64,000 nucleotides of DNA from NCBI GenBank assembly GCA_003141555.1, contig PLMN01000007.1, positions 8,514-72,513 on the forward strand, written 5' to 3'. The translations under genes and the position numbers were made by a program. Positions 44,033-56,625 of the stretch are shown one piece after another. The number at the start of each line of letters is the position of its first letter. Position 1 is the stretch's first letter. This DNA comes from Candidatus Aminicenantota bacterium (GTDB lineage Bacteria > Acidobacteriota > Aminicenantia > Aminicenantales > UBA4085). Below the pieces are notes generated by a model. The model saw only the letters and a list, made by a program, of their open reading frames with translations, had not been told where the DNA came from and ran no database searches.

Positions 44033-45265
44033 TCAGCGGGCGGCCGCCGGGCGCCGCTTGAACAGCAGGAGCGAGTCCTTCTGCGTGCCCCAGTGGTACC
44101 CGACGTGGAAGGGCAGCGTCCGCACCGCGGCCGGATCGGCATAGGCGGCCTTGAGGTCCGCCTGCTCGACGCCCCTGAACTCGCTGATGGGCGTGCTGTA
44201 CTCGCCGTAAAGGCGCACATCCCAGATCCGCGGCGAGAAGAACTTGAACGGGACGGCCGTATCGTCTTGGAGGACGAACTTGCTCCTGGCCAGGATGAGG
44301 CTCCGGATGTTGCTGAAATACCGGTACTGCATCAGATACGAGGCCGATTTAATCAGCGACGTCTCGAAGCCCAGCCCGTCCAGATACTTGTAATACAGCG
44401 AGTCCTTGGCGAAATACTCGTCGGCGATGTTGCAGGAGAAGTAGTACAGGGAGCGAACCCGGCCCGATCCCGGCTGAAAGAACTCGATCTTGACTCCATA
44501 AGGTTTGCGGAACGTTTTGCGCGGGTAGGAGAAGTCGTACTCGAAAACCTCGCCCGGGGCCAGGAACTCGCAGCGCTTGACGGACGAGATCGTATACCCC
44601 GTCCGCTTGAGGAACAGGCAGAGGATCGGCAGCACGCCCTCGACCCGGTCCCGGACGAGCAGGGCGTTCATGTTGCGGGTGATGAAATAGCTCTTGTTGA
44701 AGAAATCGGATACGGCCGCGGTCAGGTTGCCGAGGTAGTTCTCGAGGTGCTTGGCGGCGCGCGGGCCGTCCGCGGCGAACTCGGGGAGCTTGCCCACGAA
44801 CTCCAGGCCGAAGAGGACATAGGCGGAAGCATCGGGGAACATTTGAGACGGGGTCACGAAGTCCGGCCCGCCGAACGGGTAGAACAGCGTCCGCGTGGCG
44901 GCGTTCGCCTCGGCGAGCTCGGTCGCGGCCCACTCGCGCATCGGCGCCCACCGCTTCGCCTCGAGCTCCGCCCAGCCCTTGTCGAGCGCCTGGGCGTAGG
45001 CCTGCCAGGCGGGAGTCGCCTGAAGGGCCCGGAGCGCTTCCGAGTCGCAGGGCAGGCCGCTGATGAACTTGGCGAGCTCGTCGTTCGCAACATCGACCGG
45101 CGGCCCGGGCTTGGGAGGGATTACGACGGCCGCCTGGTCCTGGGCTCCCGCGGCGGGGGCGGCTCCCGCCGCACCGGCCGGATCCGCTCCGAACCACGCG
45201 AGGGCGAGCGTGAGAAGCCCGGCGAAGAGCAGGATCGCGAGGGCCCGGGCGGCGGCGTTCTTCAT
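44033..45265 (-). CDS. Secreted protein of unknown function
   Basis: A 410-residue protein with a signal sequence (1-30) and an Ala/Gly/Pro linker. The rest is a soluble, aromatic-rich domain with phrases such as FYPFGGPDFVTPSQMFPDAS, LPILCLFLKRTGYTI and FHVGYHWGTQKDSLLLF. I do not recognise the family; three scattered cysteines show no metal motif. The tail HVGYHWGTQKDSLL is striking and may be a conserved end motif. The start at 45265 is preferred for GGAAG spacing; 45271 and 45298 are alternatives. It precedes the APC permease by nine bases. Confidence 0.7.
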   Translation of the reverse strand: MKNAAARALAILLFAGLLTLALAWFGADPAGAAGAAPAAGAQDQAAVVIPPKPGPPVDVANDELAKFISGLPCDSEALRALQATPAWQAYAQALDKGWAELEAKRWAPMREWAATELAEANAATRTLFYPFGGPDFVTPSQMFPDASAYVLFGLEFVGKLPEFAADGPRAAKHLENYLGNLTAAVSDFFNKSYFITRNMNALLVRDRVEGVLPILCLFLKRTGYTISSVKRCEFLAPGEVFEYDFSYPRKTFRKPYGVKIEFFQPGSGRVRSLYYFSCNIADEYFAKDSLYYKYLDGLGFETSLIKSASYLMQYRYFSNIRSLILARSKFVLQDDTAVPFKFFSPRIWDVRLYGEYSTPISEFRGVEQADLKAAYADPAAVRTLPFHVGYHWGTQKDSLLLFKRRPAAAR

Positions 45266-45346
45266 GCGCATTTTCTTCCGATTCAAGTCTCCCATCATAA
45301 GGAATTTCGCCCGAAAATGCTATGGGAAAATCGGAGAGGCGGAAGG

Positions 45347-47023
45347 CTAAGCGATGCGCCGGACGATGACCAGGGTCCTGTCGTCCGCGGCCGGGGAGGA
45401 ACCCGTAAAAGCCTCCAGGTCGAGGAAAATCGCGGCCATCAGCTCCCGGGCGGTCGACCGGGGAAGCTTACGGCAGACGTCTGCCAGCCGGTCGGCCCCA
45501 TACTCCTCCTTGGCCGCATTCCGGCTTTCGGAGAGGCCGTCGGTGTACAGGATCATGACCTCGCCCGGAGCCAGGGTGTCGTGGCGCGCCTCGTAGGCCA
45601 TCTCGGGGAGCATCCCCAGGCAGAGGCCCGTGCTCGGCAGCGTCCGGAGACCGCCGTCCCGACCGACGACGAGCGGGGCGTTGTGGCCGGCGTTGACGTA
45701 GGCCAGCTCGCCCGTCGTCCGGTCGAGCTCGGCGAAGAAGAAGGTGATGAAGGAATTGATGGCCGAGCTGCGGTGGACGAAGCCGTTGAGCTTGACGGCC
45801 ATATCGGGCAGCCGGTAGTCCGGGCGCACCTCGGACTGGAGGGCGGCCCGGAGCGAGGCCATCAGGAGCGAGGCGCTGACGCCCTTGCCCGCCACATCGG
45901 CCACCGTGATCCCCAGGCGGCGATCGTCGATCCGGAGGAAGTCGTAATAATCGCCGCCGACCTGGAGGCAGGGGATGTTCTTCCCGGCGATGTCGAGCTC
46001 CGCGCAGGACGGATCGGACTTCGGCAGGAAATCCTTCTGGATGCGGGCGGCCAGCTCGAGCTCGCGCTCCATCTTCTCCTTCTCGATCGACTGCTCGATC
46101 AGGATCGCGTTCTCGATCTTGATCGCGGCCACGTTGGCCAGGAGCGTCAGGAGCCGGAGATCCTCCTCGGTGAACTCCTGGAGGAACGAGATCCGGTCGG
46201 CGTAGATGATCCCGATGATCTCCTTGTTGTTCCAGAGCGGGACGCACATCACCGAGTGGATCCCGGAATCGATGATGCTTTCGCGGGCCTTGAACCTCGG
46301 GTCGACGGCCGCATCGGAGGTCAGCACGGAGAGCTGCTGGTCGAAGGCCATGGCGATGATGCTCCGGCTGACCTCGATCTTCTGGTTGCGAAGAGACTTA
46401 GCGTTGACCCGGATGACCTTGGGGATGAGCTGGACGGGGTTGCCCTCCTTGAGCATCATGACCCCCCGGTCCATGGAGAGGTGGGCTGAGATGAGGTCCA
46501 TGACGTGTTCGAGGAGCTCACCGAGCGGCTTGTGGAGGACCAGGGCCTGGCTGACCTCGCTCAGGACGGAGAAGATCCGGTGCTCGATCCGCATCCGGTC
46601 CGCGTCCGTCGCGGGGGCCGACGCCGTGGCCGTCATGCGCGACGCCGGCTTGGCCAGGATCTCCCGCATGGGGATGATGGTATTGAGGTTCGTCGCCGGG
46701 GCGGGCGCGTCCGTCAGCTCAACGTTGGTCCGGAGCGGCCGATCATACAGGATGCGGACCGAGCCGATGAGAATCTCGTCGCCGGGCTTGAGGTCGGTCG
46801 GGGCCAGGATCTTCTTCCCGTTGACGAACGTTCCGTTCTTGCTGCCGCCGTCCTTGACGGCAAAACCCCCGTCCGAGGAAACGATGAGGGCGTGATGGCT
46901 CGAGCAGAACGGATCCGGGAGGGGGATGTCGTTGTCCGCCGCGCGGCCGAGGCCGGTCGCCCCGGCCTTCAGCGGGACGGCATAGTGGTCGCCCTGCTTC
47001 GGATAGATGTACAGCGTGGGCAT
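45347..47023 (-). CDS. FHA-GAF-SpoIIE (PP2C) serine phosphatase
   Basis: A 558-residue cytoplasmic signalling phosphatase. An FHA domain (about 15-95: TGLGRAADNDIPL, SSHHALIV, DGGSKNGTFVNGK) reads phosphothreonine. After a linker, a GAF domain (about 150-315) senses a ligand. The SpoIIE/PP2C domain spans about 325-555, with metal-binding Asp residues in GGDYYDFL and VADVAGKGVSASLLMASL, plus NAGHNAPLVV and YTDGLSESRN. Its expected target is the STAS protein encoded at the head of the same cluster. An extended -10 (47042-47050) may give it separate expression. Confidence 0.93.
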   Translation of the reverse strand: MPTLYIYPKQGDHYAVPLKAGATGLGRAADNDIPLPDPFCSSHHALIVSSDGGFAVKDGGSKNGTFVNGKKILAPTDLKPGDEILIGSVRILYDRPLRTNVELTDAPAPATNLNTIIPMREILAKPASRMTATASAPATDADRMRIEHRIFSVLSEVSQALVLHKPLGELLEHVMDLISAHLSMDRGVMMLKEGNPVQLIPKVIRVNAKSLRNQKIEVSRSIIAMAFDQQLSVLTSDAAVDPRFKARESIIDSGIHSVMCVPLWNNKEIIGIIYADRISFLQEFTEEDLRLLTLLANVAAIKIENAILIEQSIEKEKMERELELAARIQKDFLPKSDPSCAELDIAGKNIPCLQVGGDYYDFLRIDDRRLGITVADVAGKGVSASLLMASLRAALQSEVRPDYRLPDMAVKLNGFVHRSSAINSFITFFFAELDRTTGELAYVNAGHNAPLVVGRDGGLRTLPSTGLCLGMLPEMAYEARHDTLAPGEVMILYTDGLSESRNAAKEEYGADRLADVCRKLPRSTARELMAAIFLDLEAFTGSSPAADDRTLVIVRRIA

Positions 47024-47041
47024 CGATCTGGTCCCCGGGCC

Positions 47042-47050
47042 ATTCTAGCA
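47042..47050 (-). promoter_or_regulatory. Extended -10 upstream of the SpoIIE phosphatase gene
   Basis: On the minus strand TGC-TAGAAT (47050-47042) followed by GG. The same TGC-TARRAT form appears upstream of rsbW-like, redoxin, 57871 and phoU genes. No good -35 is visible. Confidence 0.45.
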
Positions 47051-47083
47051 CAATCGGACCGCCCCCGGCATTCGGGCCTTCCC

Positions 47084-49561
47084 TCAGAGGGCCCGGAGGA
47101 TCTTCGCGCAGACGGCCGCCTTCTCGTCGAGCGGCCGCTCCTCGAGAAGCGGCAGGAGGGGGTCCTTGATGCCCTTGGCGAGGATGTGCTCGAGGAGCTC
47201 GAGCGAATAATCGACCGAGCGTTTCGTCCCTTCGGTATAGTTCTGGTAAGCTCGGGCGATGTCGTCTTGGGGATAGATCAAGCCCAGGAGCTCGAAGATG
47301 AGCTTCAGGGTCCTCACCAGGCGGGTCGCCGCCGCGGCGGACGGACCGGCCCTCGTCCCGCTTCCCTCTCCCGCCATTTCCAGGACCGCGGCGCAGGCGC
47401 GCTTGATGAGGTCCAGGATCTCGGGCTCGACGTCGGCCGGCCGGAACGCGGCCGCGGGATGGAGCGTCCGGAACCGGGCCAGGCCTTCGATGACGGCGGT
47501 CCGGACGGCTTCGTCCCGCTTCCTGAGCTCGCGGACCAGGGCGCCGGCCGCCCGCGCCGAGCCGATGCGGGCCAGGACACCGGGAACCGCATTCCGGACT
47601 GCGGCCGGCTCGTCGGGATCGGCCAGGTAATCCTTCAGCGTGCCTGAGATCCGGTCGCGATAGGCGAGGAGCGCCTCGGCCGCGGCTTCCCGCGTGGCCG
47701 GCGGACCGAGGCGGGGCACGATCAGGGGCACGAACTCCGGCCTCCGCTGCCGGCCCGCGCTTTCGAGGGCGTAGCGGACGACCTCGGGCGACTCGTGCTT
47801 CAGGAGCCGGCCGAGGTTCCGGACGAGCGGCGCGTCGGCCGACATCATCCCCAGCGCCTTGGCGACTTCCATCTGGGCCGTGACGTCCCCGCCGCCGCGC
47901 GTTGCGGCGATCTCCTCCACCCGCTCGCGCATCACCTGCTGGTAGACGTCGAGCGAGAGGACCTCCCGGATCTCGGAGTCCAGGTCCGCGTCCTCGAGGA
48001 CGTCATCCCAATCGGCCCCGGCCGCTGCGGCGCCGGCGTCGGTGAGGCCGTCGAAACCGCCCGCACGGACGACGGACGACTGCTGGGCGATGATCGCCTT
48101 GAGCTCGGGCGTGAGCTTGTCCTTCTTGATCAGGGCCAGAAGGTTCATGGCGTAGAGGACCGAGCTTCGGTTGCGGCTCTCGAGCGTGTCGAAGACCAGC
48201 TTGGTCGCGTCGACGTCGATCTGGTCGAAGACGAGCTTGTCCGCGTCTGGCCACTTCAGGGCCAGGTTCTTCTTGACGATCCCCGCGTATTCCCGGATCA
48301 GGCGACGGTTGAGGGCGAGCCAGGCCAGGATGAACGCCACGAGAAGCCAGCTCAGCTGCGGGATCAGGAGATGGGAATAGAGAAGAAGGAGCAGCGCCGC
48401 CACGGCGTCGCCCAGCTTGCCGATGAAGAGATCGATGAAGATCTTGGCCTTGTACTTCGTCGCGGAAGGGACGGGGATGTAGAGGAGCTCGCGAGTCGAC
48501 TGGTTGAGCGAATGCGACAGGCTCTTGTCCGTGCCGCGCATGGCGGTCGCCCAGACGAGCAGGGCGAAGGCCCCCCCCGGCACCGCCAGCAGGGCGGCGC
48601 AGCCCAGGGCCAAGACGACGGGAGGAATGGAGATCGCGTTCCGCAGCCCGAACCGGCGGAGGATGCGGCTCGTCGCCAGGGCGTTGAAAAAGTAGGAGAC
48701 CACCAGGAGAACGGTATAGAACGTGGCCACGTAGACCGTGATCTTGGCCTTGTCGCCCTGGTAGTAGATCTTGAGGGACGCGGAGAATTGGAAGTCGATG
48801 ATCTTGGAGACGATGGTGGCCGAGAGCATCATCCCGCTCAGGAGGAGCAGGTAGGGGCTGCCGAGGACGGCCCGCAGGCTTTGAAGATAGCCGACGCGCG
48901 CCCGTGCGGGCCGGGGCGGCTCAGGCTCGGCCGCGCCGTCCGCCTCCTCCGGCGGCTTGCGCGGAGGCCGGCCGGTCAACGGCATCCCGGCGAGGAGCAG
49001 GCCCGCGCAGACCAGGAGCAGGTCATCGCCGCTCCTCAAAAATCGGCCGTTGAAGGACGCGATCAGCGAACCGGCCATGCCGCCCAGCAGCCCCCCGCCG
49101 ATAAAGAAGCCGACGAAGCGACGGGCCTGGCGCGGGCTGAAATGATCGCCCGCCTGGATCCAGAACTGGCTGACCGACGTCGCCAGGAACACATCCGACC
49201 AGAACCAGAAAGCCACCGTCACCCCGATCCGGTGGTTGAGGAACAGGATCCGGAAGACGATGAGGCTGAGGACGTAGAAGACCTGGGTTCCCAGGACATA
49301 GCGGCGCCGGTCCATGCGTTGGAGGAGGCGGGCGTTGAAGGCCGCGACGACGCTCATGAGGACGGCGGTGAGGAGATAGATGAGCGGCAGCTTCTCGGTG
49401 CCCAGGTCCTGGAGGAACGACGAGAGCTTCAGGGGCATGATCAGGTAGGACGAAGCCATGACCAGGAAGAACTGGAGCGTGAAGCGGAGGACGGCCCCGG
49501 ACTCGTCCGGACGCACGTCCACGAAGCGGCGCAGGAGAGTGTAGGCCCGCCCGTCCTTCAT
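47084..49561 (-). CDS. ADP/ATP-translocase-like transporter with HEAT-repeat C-domain (copy B)
   Basis: An 825-residue protein. Residues about 25-430 are a 12-helix MFS-fold transporter; DKSLSHSLNQSTRELLYIPV followed by YKAKIFIDLF is the hallmark region of TLC/Npt nucleotide transporters. The rest (about 480-820) is alpha-helical and contains HEAT-like repeats (PEVVRYALESAGRQRRPEFVPLIVPRLG, quoted in part), presumably a cytoplasmic protein-binding platform. It overlaps the paralogue upstream by four bases. Nucleotide transport is a family guess; free-living bacteria with this form have no established substrate. Confidence 0.85.
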   Translation of the reverse strand: MKDGRAYTLLRRFVDVRPDESGAVLRFTLQFFLVMASSYLIMPLKLSSFLQDLGTEKLPLIYLLTAVLMSVVAAFNARLLQRMDRRRYVLGTQVFYVLSLIVFRILFLNHRIGVTVAFWFWSDVFLATSVSQFWIQAGDHFSPRQARRFVGFFIGGGLLGGMAGSLIASFNGRFLRSGDDLLLVCAGLLLAGMPLTGRPPRKPPEEADGAAEPEPPRPARARVGYLQSLRAVLGSPYLLLLSGMMLSATIVSKIIDFQFSASLKIYYQGDKAKITVYVATFYTVLLVVSYFFNALATSRILRRFGLRNAISIPPVVLALGCAALLAVPGGAFALLVWATAMRGTDKSLSHSLNQSTRELLYIPVPSATKYKAKIFIDLFIGKLGDAVAALLLLLYSHLLIPQLSWLLVAFILAWLALNRRLIREYAGIVKKNLALKWPDADKLVFDQIDVDATKLVFDTLESRNRSSVLYAMNLLALIKKDKLTPELKAIIAQQSSVVRAGGFDGLTDAGAAAAGADWDDVLEDADLDSEIREVLSLDVYQQVMRERVEEIAATRGGGDVTAQMEVAKALGMMSADAPLVRNLGRLLKHESPEVVRYALESAGRQRRPEFVPLIVPRLGPPATREAAAEALLAYRDRISGTLKDYLADPDEPAAVRNAVPGVLARIGSARAAGALVRELRKRDEAVRTAVIEGLARFRTLHPAAAFRPADVEPEILDLIKRACAAVLEMAGEGSGTRAGPSAAAATRLVRTLKLIFELLGLIYPQDDIARAYQNYTEGTKRSVDYSLELLEHILAKGIKDPLLPLLEERPLDEKAAVCAKILRAL

Positions 49562-51990
49562 GGAATTTCCTGCGCCGCGCCGCCGCGCGCGAGCGACTCG
49601 AGCCGGGGGAGCAGACCGCCCTTGAGCTCGGGATCGAGCGTCTGGTCCAAGAGCTCGACGGCGTAGCCGACCGAATCTTCCGTTCCCTTGAGGAGGCTTT
49701 GATAGGCTCGGAAGACATCCTCATGGTTATAGATGAGGCCCAGCAGCCTGAAGACGGGCAGGACGTCGGCCGCGGCCGTCACCGGCCCGAGCGCCGCGAG
49801 GGCCCGGGCGAGCCCCGCCCGGACGGCGTCCTCGGGGAACGCCACCTCGGAATTGCGGGAGCGGATCCGGTCCAGAGCGTCGACGATGTCGGGTTCGAGA
49901 CCGGCCGGCCCGCGCGCGAGCTCATCGAGGAGGGCTTCGGCCGCCTCCGCGGTCCCGATCCCGGCCAGGAGGGACGCGACCGGGCCCCGGATCCCGGGGC
50001 TCTCCTCCCGGTCCGCGAGGAAATCCGAAAGAGTCCCGACGACCGAGTCCCCGTACTTCTCGAGCGCCGCCCGGGCGTCGCCCCGGCTCTGGGGATCGGT
50101 CAGCCGCCGGACGAGGGCCGGGACGAACTCGCGCCGGCGGAGCCGGCCGGCGGACTCGGCCGCGAACTGGAAGACCGCCGGCGAAGCATCGGCCAGGAGC
50201 TCATCGAGCCTGGACACGAGCGGCGAGCCGCGGTCCATCAGGCCGATGGCCTTGGCCAGCTCCATGCGCGAGGTCTCCCCTCCTCCGCTCCGGTCCTCGA
50301 GGACGCCGGCCGCGTAACCGCCCATCAGCGCTTGGTAGCTGTCGAGCGACAGGATTTCGCGGATCTCCCGATCCATCTCCGCCGAGAGGGCTGGATCGGC
50401 CGCCTCGGGCGTCCAAGGCGCCTCCTCGGCCTCGAGCAGCGAGTTGATCGCCGAGGCCGAACGCTCTGCGGGCGACCCGGTCGTCGCGGACGGCGGGACG
50501 AGGAGGCTTTTGATCTCCGGCGTGAGCTTCTTTCGCCGGGCCAGGTCGTAAAGATGCAGGGCGAACAAGGTCGGGCTCTGGCTCCGGCTCTCGAGGGCGT
50601 CGACGATGAGCTTGGCCGTCTCGACGTCCATCCGCTCGGAGACGAGGACGTCGGGCCGCTCCCATTTTTTGGCGAGCTGGAGGCGGACTTCGCGGACGTA
50701 GGCCCGGCCGAGGAGGATATTCAGGACGATCCAGACGACGATGAAGGCCGCCGAGGCGATGCTGGCCTCGGTGACGAGGCGGGGGCTCGCCGCCGCGTTC
50801 GAAAGCCGGACATGGGCGATGGAGAAGACGATGAGAAGCGCAAGCCCGCCGAGCGCCTTGGAGAACCGATTCACGAACATGTCGATGAAGATCTTGGCCC
50901 GGTATTTCAGTTCCGGCGCGACGGGGATATACAGCAGCTCCCGGGCCGACTGGTTGATGGAGTAGGACAGGGCTTTGTCGCTGCCCTTGATGCCCACGGC
51001 CAGCCACAGCACGGCCGGGGCGGCCGCGATGCCCACCGAAAGGAGGAGGAGGGCGGCGGGATAGATCATCAGCCCGAGCCGGATGCCGAACCGATCGATG
51101 AAACGGCTGGTCAGGACGAGCTGGAAGAGGAAGGCGAAGGCGAGGAGCCCGGAATTGAGGAAGCCGAAGAACGAGGTCAGGTTGGCCTGCCCGGCCACGA
51201 AAATGATGTTCTTGGACTGCCAGTCGATGAGCGTCGAGACGATGCCCGTCACCAGGACCACCGCCGCGATGAGGATTAGGTAGCGGCTCCCCTTCACGCT
51301 CCGGGCGCAGTCCCAGAACCCGACTTTGGCCGGAGCCGCCGGGGGCGGTTCGGCAGCCCGCCTCCCGGCCGCTTCGGCCGACGGCCGGCCGGCGAACAGG
51401 CTCCGGACGACCGCCAGGGCGGCCGCGAGGAGAAGGGCCGAGATTAGAAGCAGGTCGTGGGGGTCCATCCGCCTGGCCGCGAACCCGGTCAGTATCCCGC
51501 CGGCCACTCCCCCCAGAATGCCGCCGCTCCCGAAGAAGCCGATCAGCCGCTTGGCCTCCCGCGGGTTGAAGAGGTCGTTGACCAGGATCCAGAACTGGGT
51601 CGTCAGGACCACGACCAGGACGTTGGCCCACATCCAATAGACCAGCGACCACCATTTCCAGCTGGAGGCATGGAACACCTGCCAGAAAACGAGGTCGAGG
51701 ACGACGGAGACGGCCAGCGTCCCCATGAGGAGCCCGCGGCGGGAGAGCCGGGCCTGGAGGCGGGCGTGAAGCGAAACCGCCAGCCCGACCACCACCACCG
51801 ACGCGTAGGCGAAGGGCAGGAAGTTGGGCCCCAGGTCTTCGAGGTAGGACGCGTCGCGAAGCGACTTGATGATGTTGTACGGGGCGGTGATGAGGAAAAA
51901 ATAGGCGAACAGGAGGAGCGCCAGGCGGGCCTCGCCGGGCTTGACCTTGGCGACGGCCGCCAGGACTTTGTGAAGGCGACGTTCCGCCAT
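49558..51990 (-). CDS. ADP/ATP-translocase-like transporter with HEAT-repeat C-domain (copy A)
   Basis: An 810-residue paralogue of the next gene with the same plan: 12 transmembrane helices (about 20-430), including DKALSYSINQSARELLYIPV and YRAKIFIDMF, then HEAT-like helical repeats (about 500-800). Its ATGA overlap with copy B implies equal synthesis and suggests a heterodimer. The STAS gene ends 31 bases upstream on the same strand. No nucleotide-binding cNMP domain is visible. Sequence divergence between the copies is substantial outside the NQS-RELLYIPV segment. Confidence 0.85.
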   Translation of the reverse strand: MAERRLHKVLAAVAKVKPGEARLALLLFAYFFLITAPYNIIKSLRDASYLEDLGPNFLPFAYASVVVVGLAVSLHARLQARLSRRGLLMGTLAVSVVLDLVFWQVFHASSWKWWSLVYWMWANVLVVVLTTQFWILVNDLFNPREAKRLIGFFGSGGILGGVAGGILTGFAARRMDPHDLLLISALLLAAALAVVRSLFAGRPSAEAAGRRAAEPPPAAPAKVGFWDCARSVKGSRYLILIAAVVLVTGIVSTLIDWQSKNIIFVAGQANLTSFFGFLNSGLLAFAFLFQLVLTSRFIDRFGIRLGLMIYPAALLLLSVGIAAAPAVLWLAVGIKGSDKALSYSINQSARELLYIPVAPELKYRAKIFIDMFVNRFSKALGGLALLIVFSIAHVRLSNAAASPRLVTEASIASAAFIVVWIVLNILLGRAYVREVRLQLAKKWERPDVLVSERMDVETAKLIVDALESRSQSPTLFALHLYDLARRKKLTPEIKSLLVPPSATTGSPAERSASAINSLLEAEEAPWTPEAADPALSAEMDREIREILSLDSYQALMGGYAAGVLEDRSGGGETSRMELAKAIGLMDRGSPLVSRLDELLADASPAVFQFAAESAGRLRRREFVPALVRRLTDPQSRGDARAALEKYGDSVVGTLSDFLADREESPGIRGPVASLLAGIGTAEAAEALLDELARGPAGLEPDIVDALDRIRSRNSEVAFPEDAVRAGLARALAALGPVTAAADVLPVFRLLGLIYNHEDVFRAYQSLLKGTEDSVGYAVELLDQTLDPELKGGLLPRLESLARGGAAQEIP

Positions 51991-52020
51991 GCGGGGACTC
52001 GCGCGCCGCCGCGGGGGCGG

Positions 52021-52368
52021 CTATTCTTTGAGGAAGCTCCGGAGGGCCAGGTCCTCCTCGTCGAAGATGTCGAGGACCTTGGTGAGCATGGTGACCTGAA
52101 AGATCAGGAACAGCTTCTTGGAGATGCGGGCCAGCTTGAGCTTCCCCCCGAGGTTGAGGGTGGAAATGTAGCTGGCCAGGATCTCGCCGACCCCGAAGCT
52201 GTCGATGAAGTCCACCTTCTCGAAATTGAGGAGGATCTGCTTCTTGCCCAGCTCGAGCTCGTTCTTCACCAGTTGATGGAGGGTGACGTCGGTGATGTCC
52301 GAGCGGCGGATCTCCCCCTCGATGTCGAAAATGACGACGTTGTTTTTTTCCCGCTTGTCGATCACCAT
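52021..52368 (-). CDS. STAS-domain anti-sigma-factor antagonist-like protein
   Basis: A 115-residue single STAS domain. KVDFIDSFGVGEILASYIS is the phosphorylation loop; the Ser in IDSFG corresponds to the regulatory serine of SpoIIAA/RsbV. It heads a minus-strand cluster with two HEAT transporters and a SpoIIE phosphatase, a partner-switching pair separated by membrane genes. The cognate kinase may be the HATPase protein at 56172-56573. A promoter candidate lies 30-55 bases upstream of the start. Confidence 0.9.
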   Translation of the reverse strand: MVIDKREKNNVVIFDIEGEIRRSDITDVTLHQLVKNELELGKKQILLNFEKVDFIDSFGVGEILASYISTLNLGGKLKLARISKKLFLIFQVTMLTKVLDIFDEEDLALRSFLKE

Positions 52369-53326: not shown

Positions 53327-54358
53327 ATGCCCCGCCGAAGACCGCGACCGCCGCTTCCCTCACGGGGAATCCCCGTTTTCCTCGTCCTCGCCCTCGTCCT
53401 CGGCTTCACTCTCCCCCGGCCGGCGGCGGTCCAGCCCGAGAGCGTCTGGACCGGGGTCGAGAAGATCGTGGCCATCGGCGACCTCCACGGCGGCTACGAC
53501 CAATTCGTCCGCCTCCTGCGCGGCACGGACCTGATCGACAGCCATTTAAAGTGGATAGGCGGCAAAGCCCATCTCGTCCAGATGGGCGATGTCATGGACC
53601 GCGGGGACCGGGCCAAGGATATCTTCGACCTCATCCGCCGCCTTGAAAAAGAAGCCGAGGCGGCAGGCGGCCGCGTCCATATGCTCATCGGGAACCATGA
53701 AGAGCTGAATTTGATTCGCCGATCCCTCCAGTATGCCGACTTCGTTTCCCAAAAGCAGTTCTTCGATTTCCTGCCCCTGGGAATCCGGATCGCCGAGGAA
53801 AGCCGGGTCGGCGGCCGGCTCAGCTGGAACGATTGGCTGGACATCATCGCCAATGAGGAGTCCGTCGCGAAGGCCTACTACGACAATTTCCGAGACACCT
53901 ACGGATATTGGATCGCCGAGCACAACGTGGTCATCCAGATCAACGACACGGTCTTCGTCCACGGCGGACTGACCGAATCCTACGCGGCCATGGGCATCCA
54001 GGCCATCAACGATCTATACCACGGCGAGATTCAGCCCGGCCTGCGCGGCGAAGATATCTCCCGGCCGCGGATCGTCTTCCAGGCCGACGGACCGCTCTGG
54101 AATCGGCGCCTGGCCGATACCGACGAGACCGCCGAGCATCATGCGACCATCGACCGGATCCTGGCCAGCCTCAACGCCAAGCGGATCGTCGTCGCCCACA
54201 CGCCCACGAACTTCCATGGGCGCGAAGAAGAGATGAAACGGTACGACGGCAAGATCTGGGTGATCGACACGGGCATCGGTTTCCGCGGCGGTCGCGTCTG
54301 GGCCATCGTCATCGAGAACGGCGAAGTGGGGGTCCACAAGGGGGGTGGAACGCCATGA
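53327..54358 (+). CDS. Exported PPP-family metallophosphatase (Shewanella-like type)
   Basis: A 343-residue phosphatase with an N-terminal signal or anchor (about 12-38). All calcineurin-fold motifs are present in order: IGDLHGG, GDVMDRGD, LIGNHEELN, VFVHGGLTE and VVAHTPT, followed by WVIDTGIGF. The order and spacing match Shewanella-like protein phosphatases. It should remove phosphate from Ser/Thr or Tyr of exported proteins. Its stop overlaps the ATG of the next gene by four bases; that gene encodes a kinase-fold protein, so the pair may be opposing activities. Confidence 0.88.
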   Translation: MPRRRPRPPLPSRGIPVFLVLALVLGFTLPRPAAVQPESVWTGVEKIVAIGDLHGGYDQFVRLLRGTDLIDSHLKWIGGKAHLVQMGDVMDRGDRAKDIFDLIRRLEKEAEAAGGRVHMLIGNHEELNLIRRSLQYADFVSQKQFFDFLPLGIRIAEESRVGGRLSWNDWLDIIANEESVAKAYYDNFRDTYGYWIAEHNVVIQINDTVFVHGGLTESYAAMGIQAINDLYHGEIQPGLRGEDISRPRIVFQADGPLWNRRLADTDETAEHHATIDRILASLNAKRIVVAHTPTNFHGREEEMKRYDGKIWVIDTGIGFRGGRVWAIVIENGEVGVHKGGGTP

Positions 54359-55200
54359 ACATTCTGTCCTTCGCTCTGATCGTCGGTGTCCTGGGGACGG
54401 GCGGCGGGGGGCGCGGACCGGACGCGCAGGCGGCCCCGCCCGGCGGCGGGCAGCTCGAGCTTGAGGGCTTCCTGAAGAACGCGAAAATCGCGTCCGTCGA
54501 GAAGAACGTCGCGACAGGCCGGGGCGCGCCCTGGCGCGTGACGCTCCGCGACGCGGCGTGCTCCCGGCGGGGTTTCTTCAAGTACATCAACGCCCGGCGC
54601 CCCCAAATCGCCCCGATGAGCTACAAATACGAGATCGCGGCCTACGCCCTGTCCAAGCTCGTCGATACGCCCATCATCCCGCCCATCATCGAGCGGGACG
54701 TCGAGGGGAAGAAGGGCTCGCTCCAAATCTTCCTGGAAACCTGCGTCTCCGACATCGAGCGTCGGAAGTCCGGCAAACCGGTGTCCGGCGATCCCGTGGC
54801 GCTGGCGAACGCGTTCGACGAGCTGACCCTCTTCGAAGCCCTGACGGCCTGCGAGCGCGACCCGAACGATGTCCTGATCCACAAGGATACGGGCCGGCTT
54901 TGCCGGGTCGACTTCGCCGAGGCCTTCGATCCGACGCCCGAGCTTTCGCCGGCCGCGGCCGCGGCCGGCCGCTGTTCGCGGCGGCTGTATGCCGGCCTGC
55001 GCGATCTCGATCCCGCGGCCGCGGAAGCGGCCCTGGCGCCCTTCCTCAATGCCGCCGAGATCAAAGGCCTGCTCGTCCGCCGGATGCTCCTCCTCGAAAA
55101 ATTCAAGACGCTGATCGGGGCCAAGGGCGAGGCGGCGGTGCTGTTCGACCTCGCCGTTCCCACGAGCGACCGCGAAGGAGCGGGCAAAAGGATTCCGTGA
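54355..55200 (+). CDS. Exported kinase-fold protein, degenerate catalytic loop (paralogue 1)
   Basis: A 281-residue protein with a hydrophobic leader. It aligns by eye with the paralogue at 55272: PWRVTLRD...FFKYI, YKYEIAAYALSKLVDTPIIPPIIE, then a catalytic-loop-like ERDPNDVLI (E167 to D172) and RVDFAEAF (D186). The layout recalls HipA/FAM20/PI4K-like atypical kinases, whose loop is D-X4-N and whose metal site is a later Asp. Here the loop Asp is Glu and the Asn is Asp, so activity may be lost or altered. Translationally coupled to the phosphatase. Family assignment is tentative. Confidence 0.6.
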   Translation: MNILSFALIVGVLGTGGGGRGPDAQAAPPGGGQLELEGFLKNAKIASVEKNVATGRGAPWRVTLRDAACSRRGFFKYINARRPQIAPMSYKYEIAAYALSKLVDTPIIPPIIERDVEGKKGSLQIFLETCVSDIERRKSGKPVSGDPVALANAFDELTLFEALTACERDPNDVLIHKDTGRLCRVDFAEAFDPTPELSPAAAAAGRCSRRLYAGLRDLDPAAAEAALAPFLNAAEIKGLLVRRMLLLEKFKTLIGAKGEAAVLFDLAVPTSDREGAGKRIP

Positions 55201-55271
55201 CGGCGGGCCGCCCATCGAGGCCTAACCGCCGGTCAAGCGCTGGAAGGGCGTTCGTTTCGGGAGGTGGGGTC

Positions 55272-56144
55272 ATGAATCCAAAGACGCGGCGGACGGGGCG
55301 GCTGGTCCTTTGGGCGGCGGCCGCGGGACTGGTCTTCGGAGCGGCGGCGGGCTTTGCCGGCCCCCAATACAAGCCCGATGAGGTCGCGCAGCGCGAAGCG
55401 TGGGAGAGCTTCCTCCAAACGGCCGAGATCGTGAGGTCCGAGCCCATCGGCGAAGGCGTGACGAATCCCTGGAAGATCTATCTGAAAGCCGGCGGCGTCG
55501 AGAAAAAGGCCGCCTGGAAAGGGACGACCGGCCTCCAGGAATGGCGGTTCGAGATCGCGGCCTACCGCCTGGACAAACTCCTCGGCTTGAACATGCTCCC
55601 CCCGGCGGTCGAGCGCGAGTTCAACCGGAAGCGGGGGGCCCTCATCCTTTGGGCCGATTCCAAGACGAGCCTCTTGAAGCTCGCCGAGGACAACGAGAAG
55701 GCGCGGAAGGCCGGGCGGAAGGAGGACCCGCCGCCCGAGTTCGTGGCCGTCTACGGCCGGGGCAAGTACATCGCCCGGATCTGGGACTGCCTCGCGGCCA
55801 ACGAGGACCGGACGCAGGAGAACATCCTCTACACCGACGACTGGCGGACGCTCCTCATCGACCATTCCTTCGCCTTCCGCTCCGAGGGCGAGTACGCGAC
55901 GAAGCTCATCTACGGCAGGAACGGGATCAAGAAATACGAGAACGGCGACCCGATCCTGATCAAGCAGGCCCCGCGGGCGCTCGTGGACAGGATCCGGGCC
56001 CTCGACGCCGAGAGCCTCAAGAAGGCCGTCGGCCCCTATCTGACCGCCAACGAGATCGCCGCCGTCCTGAGCCGGGCCAAGATTCTGGTCACCGAAATCG
56101 AGGAAATGGCCAAGCTCATCGGCGAAGACAAGTTCTATTTTTAG
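55272..56144 (+). CDS. Exported kinase-fold protein, intact catalytic loop (paralogue 2)
   Basis: A 290-residue protein with a signal peptide (1-29, ending GFAG). PWKIYLKAGG...AAWK, EWRFEIAAYRLDKLLGLNMLPP and VEREFNRKRGALILW form a kinase N-lobe-like region. ANEDRTQENIL supplies the catalytic loop (D179, N184) and TLLIDHSFAF the metal-binding D197. These resemble motifs of HipA/PI4K-like and FAM20-type kinases (recognition by pattern). A good GGGAGGTGG ribosome binding site precedes it, 71 bases after paralogue 1. It may phosphorylate exported proteins or a lipid or sugar; untested. Confidence 0.65.
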   Translation: MNPKTRRTGRLVLWAAAAGLVFGAAAGFAGPQYKPDEVAQREAWESFLQTAEIVRSEPIGEGVTNPWKIYLKAGGVEKKAAWKGTTGLQEWRFEIAAYRLDKLLGLNMLPPAVEREFNRKRGALILWADSKTSLLKLAEDNEKARKAGRKEDPPPEFVAVYGRGKYIARIWDCLAANEDRTQENILYTDDWRTLLIDHSFAFRSEGEYATKLIYGRNGIKKYENGDPILIKQAPRALVDRIRALDAESLKKAVGPYLTANEIAAVLSRAKILVTEIEEMAKLIGEDKFYF

Positions 56145-56171: not shown

Positions 56172-56573
56172 CTATATTTTCTTGGTCATCGTCAGGACGT
56201 TCTGCCCGTCCTCGCGTCGGTAGGAGCAGACGTCCATCAGCTGCAGGGTGAGATAGATCCCCAGTCCCCCCTTCCGGCCGGCGGCGATGATCTTCTTGAT
56301 GTCGGGCTTGGGGGCCGAGCAGGGGTCGAACGGCACGCCTGAATCCCGGATCTCCACGATCACCCGGCGCCGCCCCTCCTTGAGGGACAGGCTGATCGAG
56401 CCGCGCTTCTTCGGATAAGCGTAGCGGATGATATTGACGCAGATCTCAACGACGGCCAGCTCGATCTTGAAAAAGTCCTGCTCGGACAGGGCCGCGGGGG
56501 CGAGATGATCGCGGAGAAAGCGGCGGACGTCGTCGATCCTGGACAAATCGGCCGTGATGGCGAGCGTCTTCAC
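56172..56573 (-). CDS. RsbW/SpoIIAB-like HATPase (anti-sigma factor kinase)
   Basis: A 133-residue GHKL ATPase. VVEICVNIIRYAYP is the N-box, VIVEIRDSGVPFDP the G1 box and GRKGGLGIYLTLQLMD the G2 box. This is the size and order of serine kinases that phosphorylate STAS antagonists and bind sigma factors. The start is a GTG at 56573, eight bases after GGAGG; the ATG at 56594 overlaps the promoter. The nearest STAS gene is 3.7 kb away (52021-52368), with a SpoIIE phosphatase in the same cluster. No sigma-factor gene is in the window. Confidence 0.88.
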   Translation of the reverse strand: MKTLAITADLSRIDDVRRFLRDHLAPAALSEQDFFKIELAVVEICVNIIRYAYPKKRGSISLSLKEGRRRVIVEIRDSGVPFDPCSAPKPDIKKIIAAGRKGGLGIYLTLQLMDVCSYRREDGQNVLTMTKKI

Positions 56574-56592
56574 CGCAAATCCCTCCGAGCCC

Positions 56593-56601
56593 ATTCTAGC
56601 A
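56593..56601 (-). promoter_or_regulatory. Extended -10 of the RsbW-like gene
   Basis: Minus-strand TGC-TAGAAT (56601-56593) then GGG; start expected near 56586, 13 bases before the GTG. A plus-strand counterpart TGC-TAAGAT (56626-56634) faces the other way for the redoxin gene. Confidence 0.45.
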
Positions 56602-56625
56602 GAAGGCTCCCCGGCCCGCAATTTG

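Follow-up and report, generated by a model that had tools for sequence, protein, structure and literature searches.

In a 3.8-Mb genome closely related to genomes named Candidatus Aminicenantes, four genes lie consecutively on the minus strand between positions 45347 and 52368 of the window (here, the whole 64,000-nucleotide stretch that was analyzed): a STAS-domain gene, two paralogous transporter genes, TLC1 and TLC2, and a gene for an FHA-GAF-SpoIIE phosphatase. Both transporters consist of a nucleotide-transporter (NTT) domain followed by HEAT repeats (NTT-HEAT). Only 30 nt separate STAS from TLC1 and 60 nt separate TLC2 from the SpoIIE gene; the end of TLC1 and the start of TLC2 overlap in an ATGA at 49561-49558. 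A first-pass annotation, made from the letters alone, had described this order, strand and overlap, all of which the coordinates and the Pfam matches (Table 1) bear out. It had stopped at these four genes, and in this it was incomplete: an RsbW-like ATPase and a divergent phosphatase/kinase run share the conserved cluster with them. The divergent run, on the plus strand at 53327-56144, comprises a calcineurin-like phosphatase and two proteins without a Pfam family above the cut-off, K1 and K2. In most relatives, the kinase strand also carries a third, HEAT-less TLC transporter, TLC3; it has been lost here, leaving 71 nt between K1 and K2. A protein of 421 aa that begins with a hydrophobic stretch and matches no Pfam family (window 44033-45298) is encoded 3' of the SpoIIE gene in most genomes of the same family but not elsewhere.

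Table 1. Genes and sites of the cluster, their positions in the window and the matches on which their assignment rests.
Feature	Coordinates	Strand	Evidence
STAS-domain protein (RsbV/SpoIIAA type), 115 aa, Ser in FIDSFG	52021..52368	-	PF01740 2.6e-10; SpoIIAA structures 2.2e-8
TLC1, NTT-type ATP/ADP translocase domain (~1-440) + C-terminal HEAT domain (~445-805), 810 aa	49558..51990	-	PF03219 6.7e-14, HEAT_2 9e-8; AF2 model
TLC2, paralogous NTT-HEAT protein, 825 aa	47084..49561	-	PF03219 2.7e-12, HEAT_2 2.4e-8
FHA-GAF-SpoIIE (PP2C-type) phosphatase, 558 aa	45347..47023	-	SpoIIE 1.3e-44, FHA 2e-20, GAF 3e-16
RsbW-like serine kinase / switch protein (HATPase_c_2), 149 aa, possibly starting 3' of TTG	56172..56621	-	PF13581 4e-30; RsbW structure 1.3e-5
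Secreted calcineurin-like protein phosphatase (Shewanella PTPase type), predicted signal peptide	53327..54358	+	PF00149 1.5e-13; 2z72 3.5e-31
K1, secreted FAM20-like pseudokinase-like protein; ATGA overlap with phosphatase gene	54355..55200	+	Catalytic Asp absent
K2, secreted FAM20-like kinase, K83/E94/D179/D197 intact	55272..56144	+	Profile and AF2 fold match
Site of TLC3 in most relatives, between K1 and K2; TLC3 absent here	55201..55271		Neighborhood comparison

Conservation and co-inheritance of the cluster

The four-gene arrangement is more than chance. Among 63 named loci of relatives, a STAS gene lies upstream of NTT-HEAT in 39 of the 43 loci that are testable and the FHA-GAF-SpoIIE gene lies downstream in 48 of 51; both flanks are in place in 34 of the 37 testable loci of named Candidatus Aminicenantes relatives. 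The number of NTT genes is less constant, with two in about half of the 63 loci and one in about half. The first-pass annotation had asked whether STAS and SpoIIE genes accompany HEAT-type TLC transporters in other genomes or whether neighborhoods are shuffled and the families unlinked; the survey finds the link conserved and its members co-inherited. Genomes of the same family have the block where their contigs span the locus, and two genomes have one NTT-HEAT gene rather than two. Elsewhere in the order, the aldo-keto reductase, UbiA, amino-acid permease, 421-aa protein and thioesterase genes are gone from the surroundings, but STAS-NTT-(NTT)-SpoIIE is retained, with an opposite-strand phosphatase/kinase run adjoining. 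Since these neighbors are kept only within the same family, general synteny has been lost elsewhere. In nine named loci, SpoIIE is followed after 27-42 nt by the RsbW-like gene, giving the order STAS-NTT-SpoIIE-RsbW; in two genomes (G045 and G046), the SpoIIE gene is retained though it lies on a different contig from the NTT gene. The title of one record, Clostridiales (L145), is very likely wrong: the record contains the complete cluster of the Aminicenantes type.

Are the genes also gained and lost together? The presence of NTT-HEAT, the SpoIIE and STAS orthologues and the kinase was compared across 94 genomes of the order, 49 of which are near-complete (at least 90%). NTT-HEAT is found in 34 of these 49, accompanied by SpoIIE in 33, STAS in 32 and the kinase in 33; the remaining 15 have none of the four families. 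NTT, STAS, SpoIIE and kinase are inherited nearly all-or-none in the order (p ~1e-11, values that overstate the independence of the genomes, which have ancestry in common). The exceptions are three (G037, G038 and G055), assemblies of 400-510 contigs, and the losses are spread over several genera (g13, g20, g21, g27 and g33). The cluster is almost certainly a real conserved module. One order does supply most of the intact clusters, as neutral hitchhiking (an old synteny with no functional link) would have it; however, other neighbors are not retained beyond the family, co-loss is nearly all-or-none, and the NTT-phosphatase-kinase link recurs in different gene orders in other families of the phylum (below). 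Together, the lost neighbors, co-loss and shuffled recurrence largely refute this explanation, which we consider highly improbable.

Transporters, switch proteins and secreted enzymes

Against a PF03219 cut-off of 21 bits, TLC1 scores 52 and TLC2 46.7. The NTT fold is assigned to TLC2 by sequence and to TLC1 by an AlphaFold2 model (34 sequences, pLDDT 84), which aligns with ADP/Pi-bound AtNTT1 over 414 residues at 2.4 A with a Z score of 40.7, compared to ~29 for the unrelated MFS proteins that come next. In AtNTT1, the charged residues K155, E245, E385 and K527 were reportedly found to be functionally important by Trentmann et al. in 2000. At the four matching positions, TLC1 has R/N/D/(K or R) in all 23 sequences; TLC2 has K/(D or E)/D followed by K, R or D, and about one third of the TLC2 proteins are without the last Lys. 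As judged from these alignments, TLC1 and TLC2 appear to be stably different paralogs in which the NTT basic/acidic pattern is largely kept. Yet the Asn that replaces an acidic AtNTT1 residue in TLC1 and the losses of the last Lys in TLC2 make the nucleotide specificity uncertain and thus count against the ATP-export explanation that we favor (below). Other NTT-HEAT architectures also exist: some genomes of the order have a second type (frames of ~950 aa, with more HEAT repeats) with no STAS, SpoIIE or kinase gene nearby (L101:8291-10879 and L102:8269-10851), and three loci of other Acidobacteriota (L117, L118 and L123) have two NTT-HEAT genes back to back, of ~930 aa and ~1230-1260 aa, the long protein bearing C-terminal cyclic-nucleotide-binding-like domains in L117 and L118.

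The switch proteins keep their canonical residues. The STAS Ser aligns with SpoIIAA Ser58, and the Ser of the FIDS motif is present in 43 of 43 relatives; the RsbW-like protein retains the N box in 22, the G1 box in 23 and the G2 box in 21 of 23 sequences; and SpoIIE has GGD[YF][YF]D in each of 47 relatives, with a full PP2C metal-motif set, matched by a regular expression, in 36. What do these proteins control? Sigma factors are the classical target of partner switching (PMC8256260), and with all three switch proteins so well preserved, SpoIIE, STAS and RsbW might act on a distant sigma factor, NTT-HEAT, kinase and phosphatase being co-localized targets and the HEAT domains serving an unrelated role. 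This is unlikely: no sigma factor gene is found among the window neighbors scanned or, in L164, among the scanned flanking genes, the transporters sit between STAS and SpoIIE in a tight co-directional run, and non-sigma targets have been suggested for STAS-only proteins (PMC8256260). With intact switch residues and no sigma factor gene in the scanned flanks, the cytoplasmic half of the cluster is best read as putative mutual control between partner switching and the HEAT transporters, as proposed by the first-pass annotation. That interpretation is thus partly supported, and it is extended here by the extracytoplasmic half, which the annotation had missed.

The extracytoplasmic half is set apart by its N-termini: 91% of the kinases and phosphatases, as against 0-2% of the STAS, SpoIIE and RsbW proteins, begin with a hydrophobic stretch, signal peptides being called by a simple hydrophobicity rule. 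A profile of 56 family members (A4) finds FAM20A (4.7e-9), FAM20B (1.9e-6) and FAM20C (7.9e-6) as its best matches in the PDB, the FAM20 range extending to 9.6e-6 and PI4KII coming next. The AlphaFold2 model of K2 (pLDDT 90) likewise has its closest structural matches in Fam20 (Z 19.8 to 18.1, 225-235 residues), compared to Z scores of 18 for PI4KII, 16 for CtkA and ~12 for HipA; the last value led us to reject a HipA-like identity, though HipA_2 is the commonest weak Pfam match. K2-type proteins have the beta-3 Lys, the Glu and the DFG-type Asp in 38 of 38 sequences and the Asp-Arg of N-x-D-R in 37, with a gap in the remaining one. In K1-type proteins, whose gene comes immediately after the phosphatase gene, the catalytic Asp is missing from all 18 sequences, although the DFG-type Asp is kept; in one locus (L185), phosphatase and K1 are fused in one open frame, encoding a 618-aa protein. 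The phosphatase itself matches a Shewanella protein-tyrosine phosphatase of the PPP fold (Table 1). Away from the cluster, the genome that contains the window encodes two more FAM20-like kinases (G000:C2:52190-52966 and G000:C20:47649-48470).

The kinase-transporter link across Acidobacteriota

Are STAS and SpoIIE the only partners of these transporters? We rejected this idea because the link to the kinase and phosphatase is wider, while STAS/SpoIIE are confined to the order with one exception found (G203/L174). Among 396 genomes of the phylum, a TLC protein is encoded in 79 of the 80 that bear the kinase; outside the window's own order, TLC is present in 61/62 kinase-bearing but only 75/306 kinase-free genomes (p=4e-30). 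The kinase lies within 10 kb of an NTT-HEAT gene in 14 of the 41 non-order genomes with both listed, compared to an expected 0.3, and is absent from 16 of the 61 non-order genomes with strong NTT-HEAT matches. This asymmetry, in which the kinase is almost never found without TLC whereas NTT-HEAT is found without the kinase, is the pattern that a dependence of the kinase on the transporter would produce. Outside the order, gene arrangements vary: kinase-phosphatase-NTT in L124; phosphatase-NTT, then an opposite kinase, in L120; NTT, a cyclic-nucleotide-binding (cNBD) gene and a phosphatase-kinase as a single ORF in L125; and a kinase facing NTT-cNBD in L127. Because transporter, phosphatase and kinase recur in shuffled orders across Acidobacteriota, without STAS/SpoIIE, they look like the older partnership, whose secreted enzymes give the system its likely purpose. 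The regulator's place, occupied by STAS/RsbW/SpoIIE in this order, is often taken by cNBD genes in other lineages of the phylum. The exceptional genome, G203 (L113/L174), belongs to non-Aminicenantia Acidobacteria and has a cluster of the order STAS-NTT-SpoIIE-RsbW in which a single frame encodes both phosphatase and K1, reflecting either horizontal transfer or a misbinned contig.

An extension of the kinase-NTT link to Gemmatimonadota was also rejected (one weak match in 200 genomes); examples from Gemmatimonadota and Poribacteria have NTT-HEAT-cNBD without the kinase. Together with the 16 kinase-free genomes above, they indicate that NTT-HEAT has other uses, which counts against our preferred explanation. 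In intracellular bacteria, the NTTs that have been characterized take up nucleotides from the host (PMC5381601). The NTT-HEAT proteins of the cluster might likewise be importers or sensors ("transceptors") of external nucleotides, with the HEAT domain relaying occupancy to STAS/SpoIIE and the secreted enzymes acting on scavenged nucleotides or other small molecules, and a GAF-FHA sensor phosphatase in the module would suit this role. We nevertheless find it quite improbable as an account of the cluster: a FAM20 fold and a phosphatase whose closest match is a protein-tyrosine phosphatase point to macromolecular phosphorylation, and it is the kinase that almost never occurs without TLC, not TLC without the kinase.

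A proposed ATP-export mechanism and its known relatives

If K2 acts outside the cytoplasm, where would its ATP come from? Bacterial kinases are generally assigned to the cytoplasm on the ground that periplasmic ATP is lacking. Indeed, the periplasm has been described as devoid of ATP (PMC11032199). A periplasmic kinase would need ATP brought out and ADP taken back, and thus an ATP/ADP exchanger fits. We give roughly even odds to a model in which the NTT proteins export ATP for FAM20-like extracytoplasmic phosphorylation and a partner switch gates the export via the HEAT domains. The cluster would then work as a single functional module, half of it cytoplasmic and half extracytoplasmic. The NTT-HEAT proteins, joined by TLC3 in relatives, would move cytoplasmic ATP out and ADP in across the inner membrane; K2 would use the exported ATP to phosphorylate its presumed substrates, with K1 probably serving as its allosteric partner, as FAM20A does for FAM20C; the exchanger would take back the ADP produced by the kinase reaction; and the secreted phosphatase would undo the modification. 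In the cytoplasm, the FHA-GAF-SpoIIE phosphatase and the RsbW-like kinase would set the phosphorylation state of STAS, and free STAS would dock on the HEAT domains, directly or via RsbW, to open or close the transporters. The HEAT domain, expected to be cytoplasmic, would be a natural docking site for a switch that differs by lineage, cNBD or STAS/RsbW. More tentatively, the same scheme may hold across the phylum: a FAM20-type kinase with a pseudokinase activator and a phosphatase would have its own ATP/ADP translocases to deliver ATP to the periplasm, gated in Aminicenantes by STAS/RsbW/SpoIIE partner switching at the HEAT domains and, in other Acidobacteriota, by cyclic-nucleotide-binding proteins.

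Each part belongs to a known family; the novelty lies in the assembled system. To our knowledge, no such system has been described, and no counterpart was found in the open-access literature searched. If the ATP-export model is true, (i) a dedicated, regulated ATP route out of the cytoplasm powers phosphorylation in a compartment thought to be ATP-free; (ii) the broadly conserved, uncharacterized NTT-HEAT proteins acquire a role; (iii) partner switching extends to a membrane transporter; and (iv) bacteria possess a FAM20A/FAM20C-like pseudokinase-kinase pair. The model is directly testable because one cluster holds the candidate ATP source, users, eraser and switch.

Each half has recognizable relatives. 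The cytoplasmic half resembles SpoIIAA/SpoIIAB/SpoIIE and RsbV/RsbW/RsbU of Bacillus in having a STAS protein with a conserved Ser, an RsbW-type HATPase and a PP2C-type SpoIIE phosphatase, but differs in that no sigma factor gene lies in the scanned flanks, the genes are interleaved with transporters, and the phosphatase carries FHA and GAF domains. Among the FAM20 secretory-pathway kinases, FAM20A is a pseudokinase that activates FAM20C via heterodimerization (PMC5865150). FAM20A/B/C are the best fold match of K2, and the module shares with them the Lys, Glu, catalytic Asp and DFG-type Asp, (predicted) secretion and a kinase-pseudokinase pairing; by contrast, the module's kinases are bacterial, ~270-290 aa long, 16-21% identical to FAM20 and encoded beside an ATP/ADP translocase. 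Bacteria go unmentioned in that FAM20 paper, and a search of the open-access literature for FAM20C in bacteria found no relevant paper.

For the transporters, NTT-HEAT and NTT-HEAT-cNBD fusions are known in free-living bacteria, and one Aminicenantes NTT sequence has been surveyed (Major, Embley and Williams, 2017; PMC5381601). As in those systems, the NTT domain here is followed by HEAT repeats and a regulatory domain is adjacent or fused; however, the regulator in the accessible part of that survey is a cyclic-nucleotide-binding domain, with no mention of STAS and no secreted kinase/phosphatase neighbor of NTT-HEAT reported, whereas the neighbors here are STAS, SpoIIE and RsbW genes. AtNTT1 and CpNTT1, the plastid and chlamydial translocases (PDB 9j3m, 9j3n), are the best fold match of TLC1, and most of the four charged intramembrane positions appear similar. 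Unlike them, the TLC proteins (17-20% identity) have an extra HEAT domain, come as tandem paralogs and belong to a free-living host, and their expected net direction is reversed, with ATP going out.
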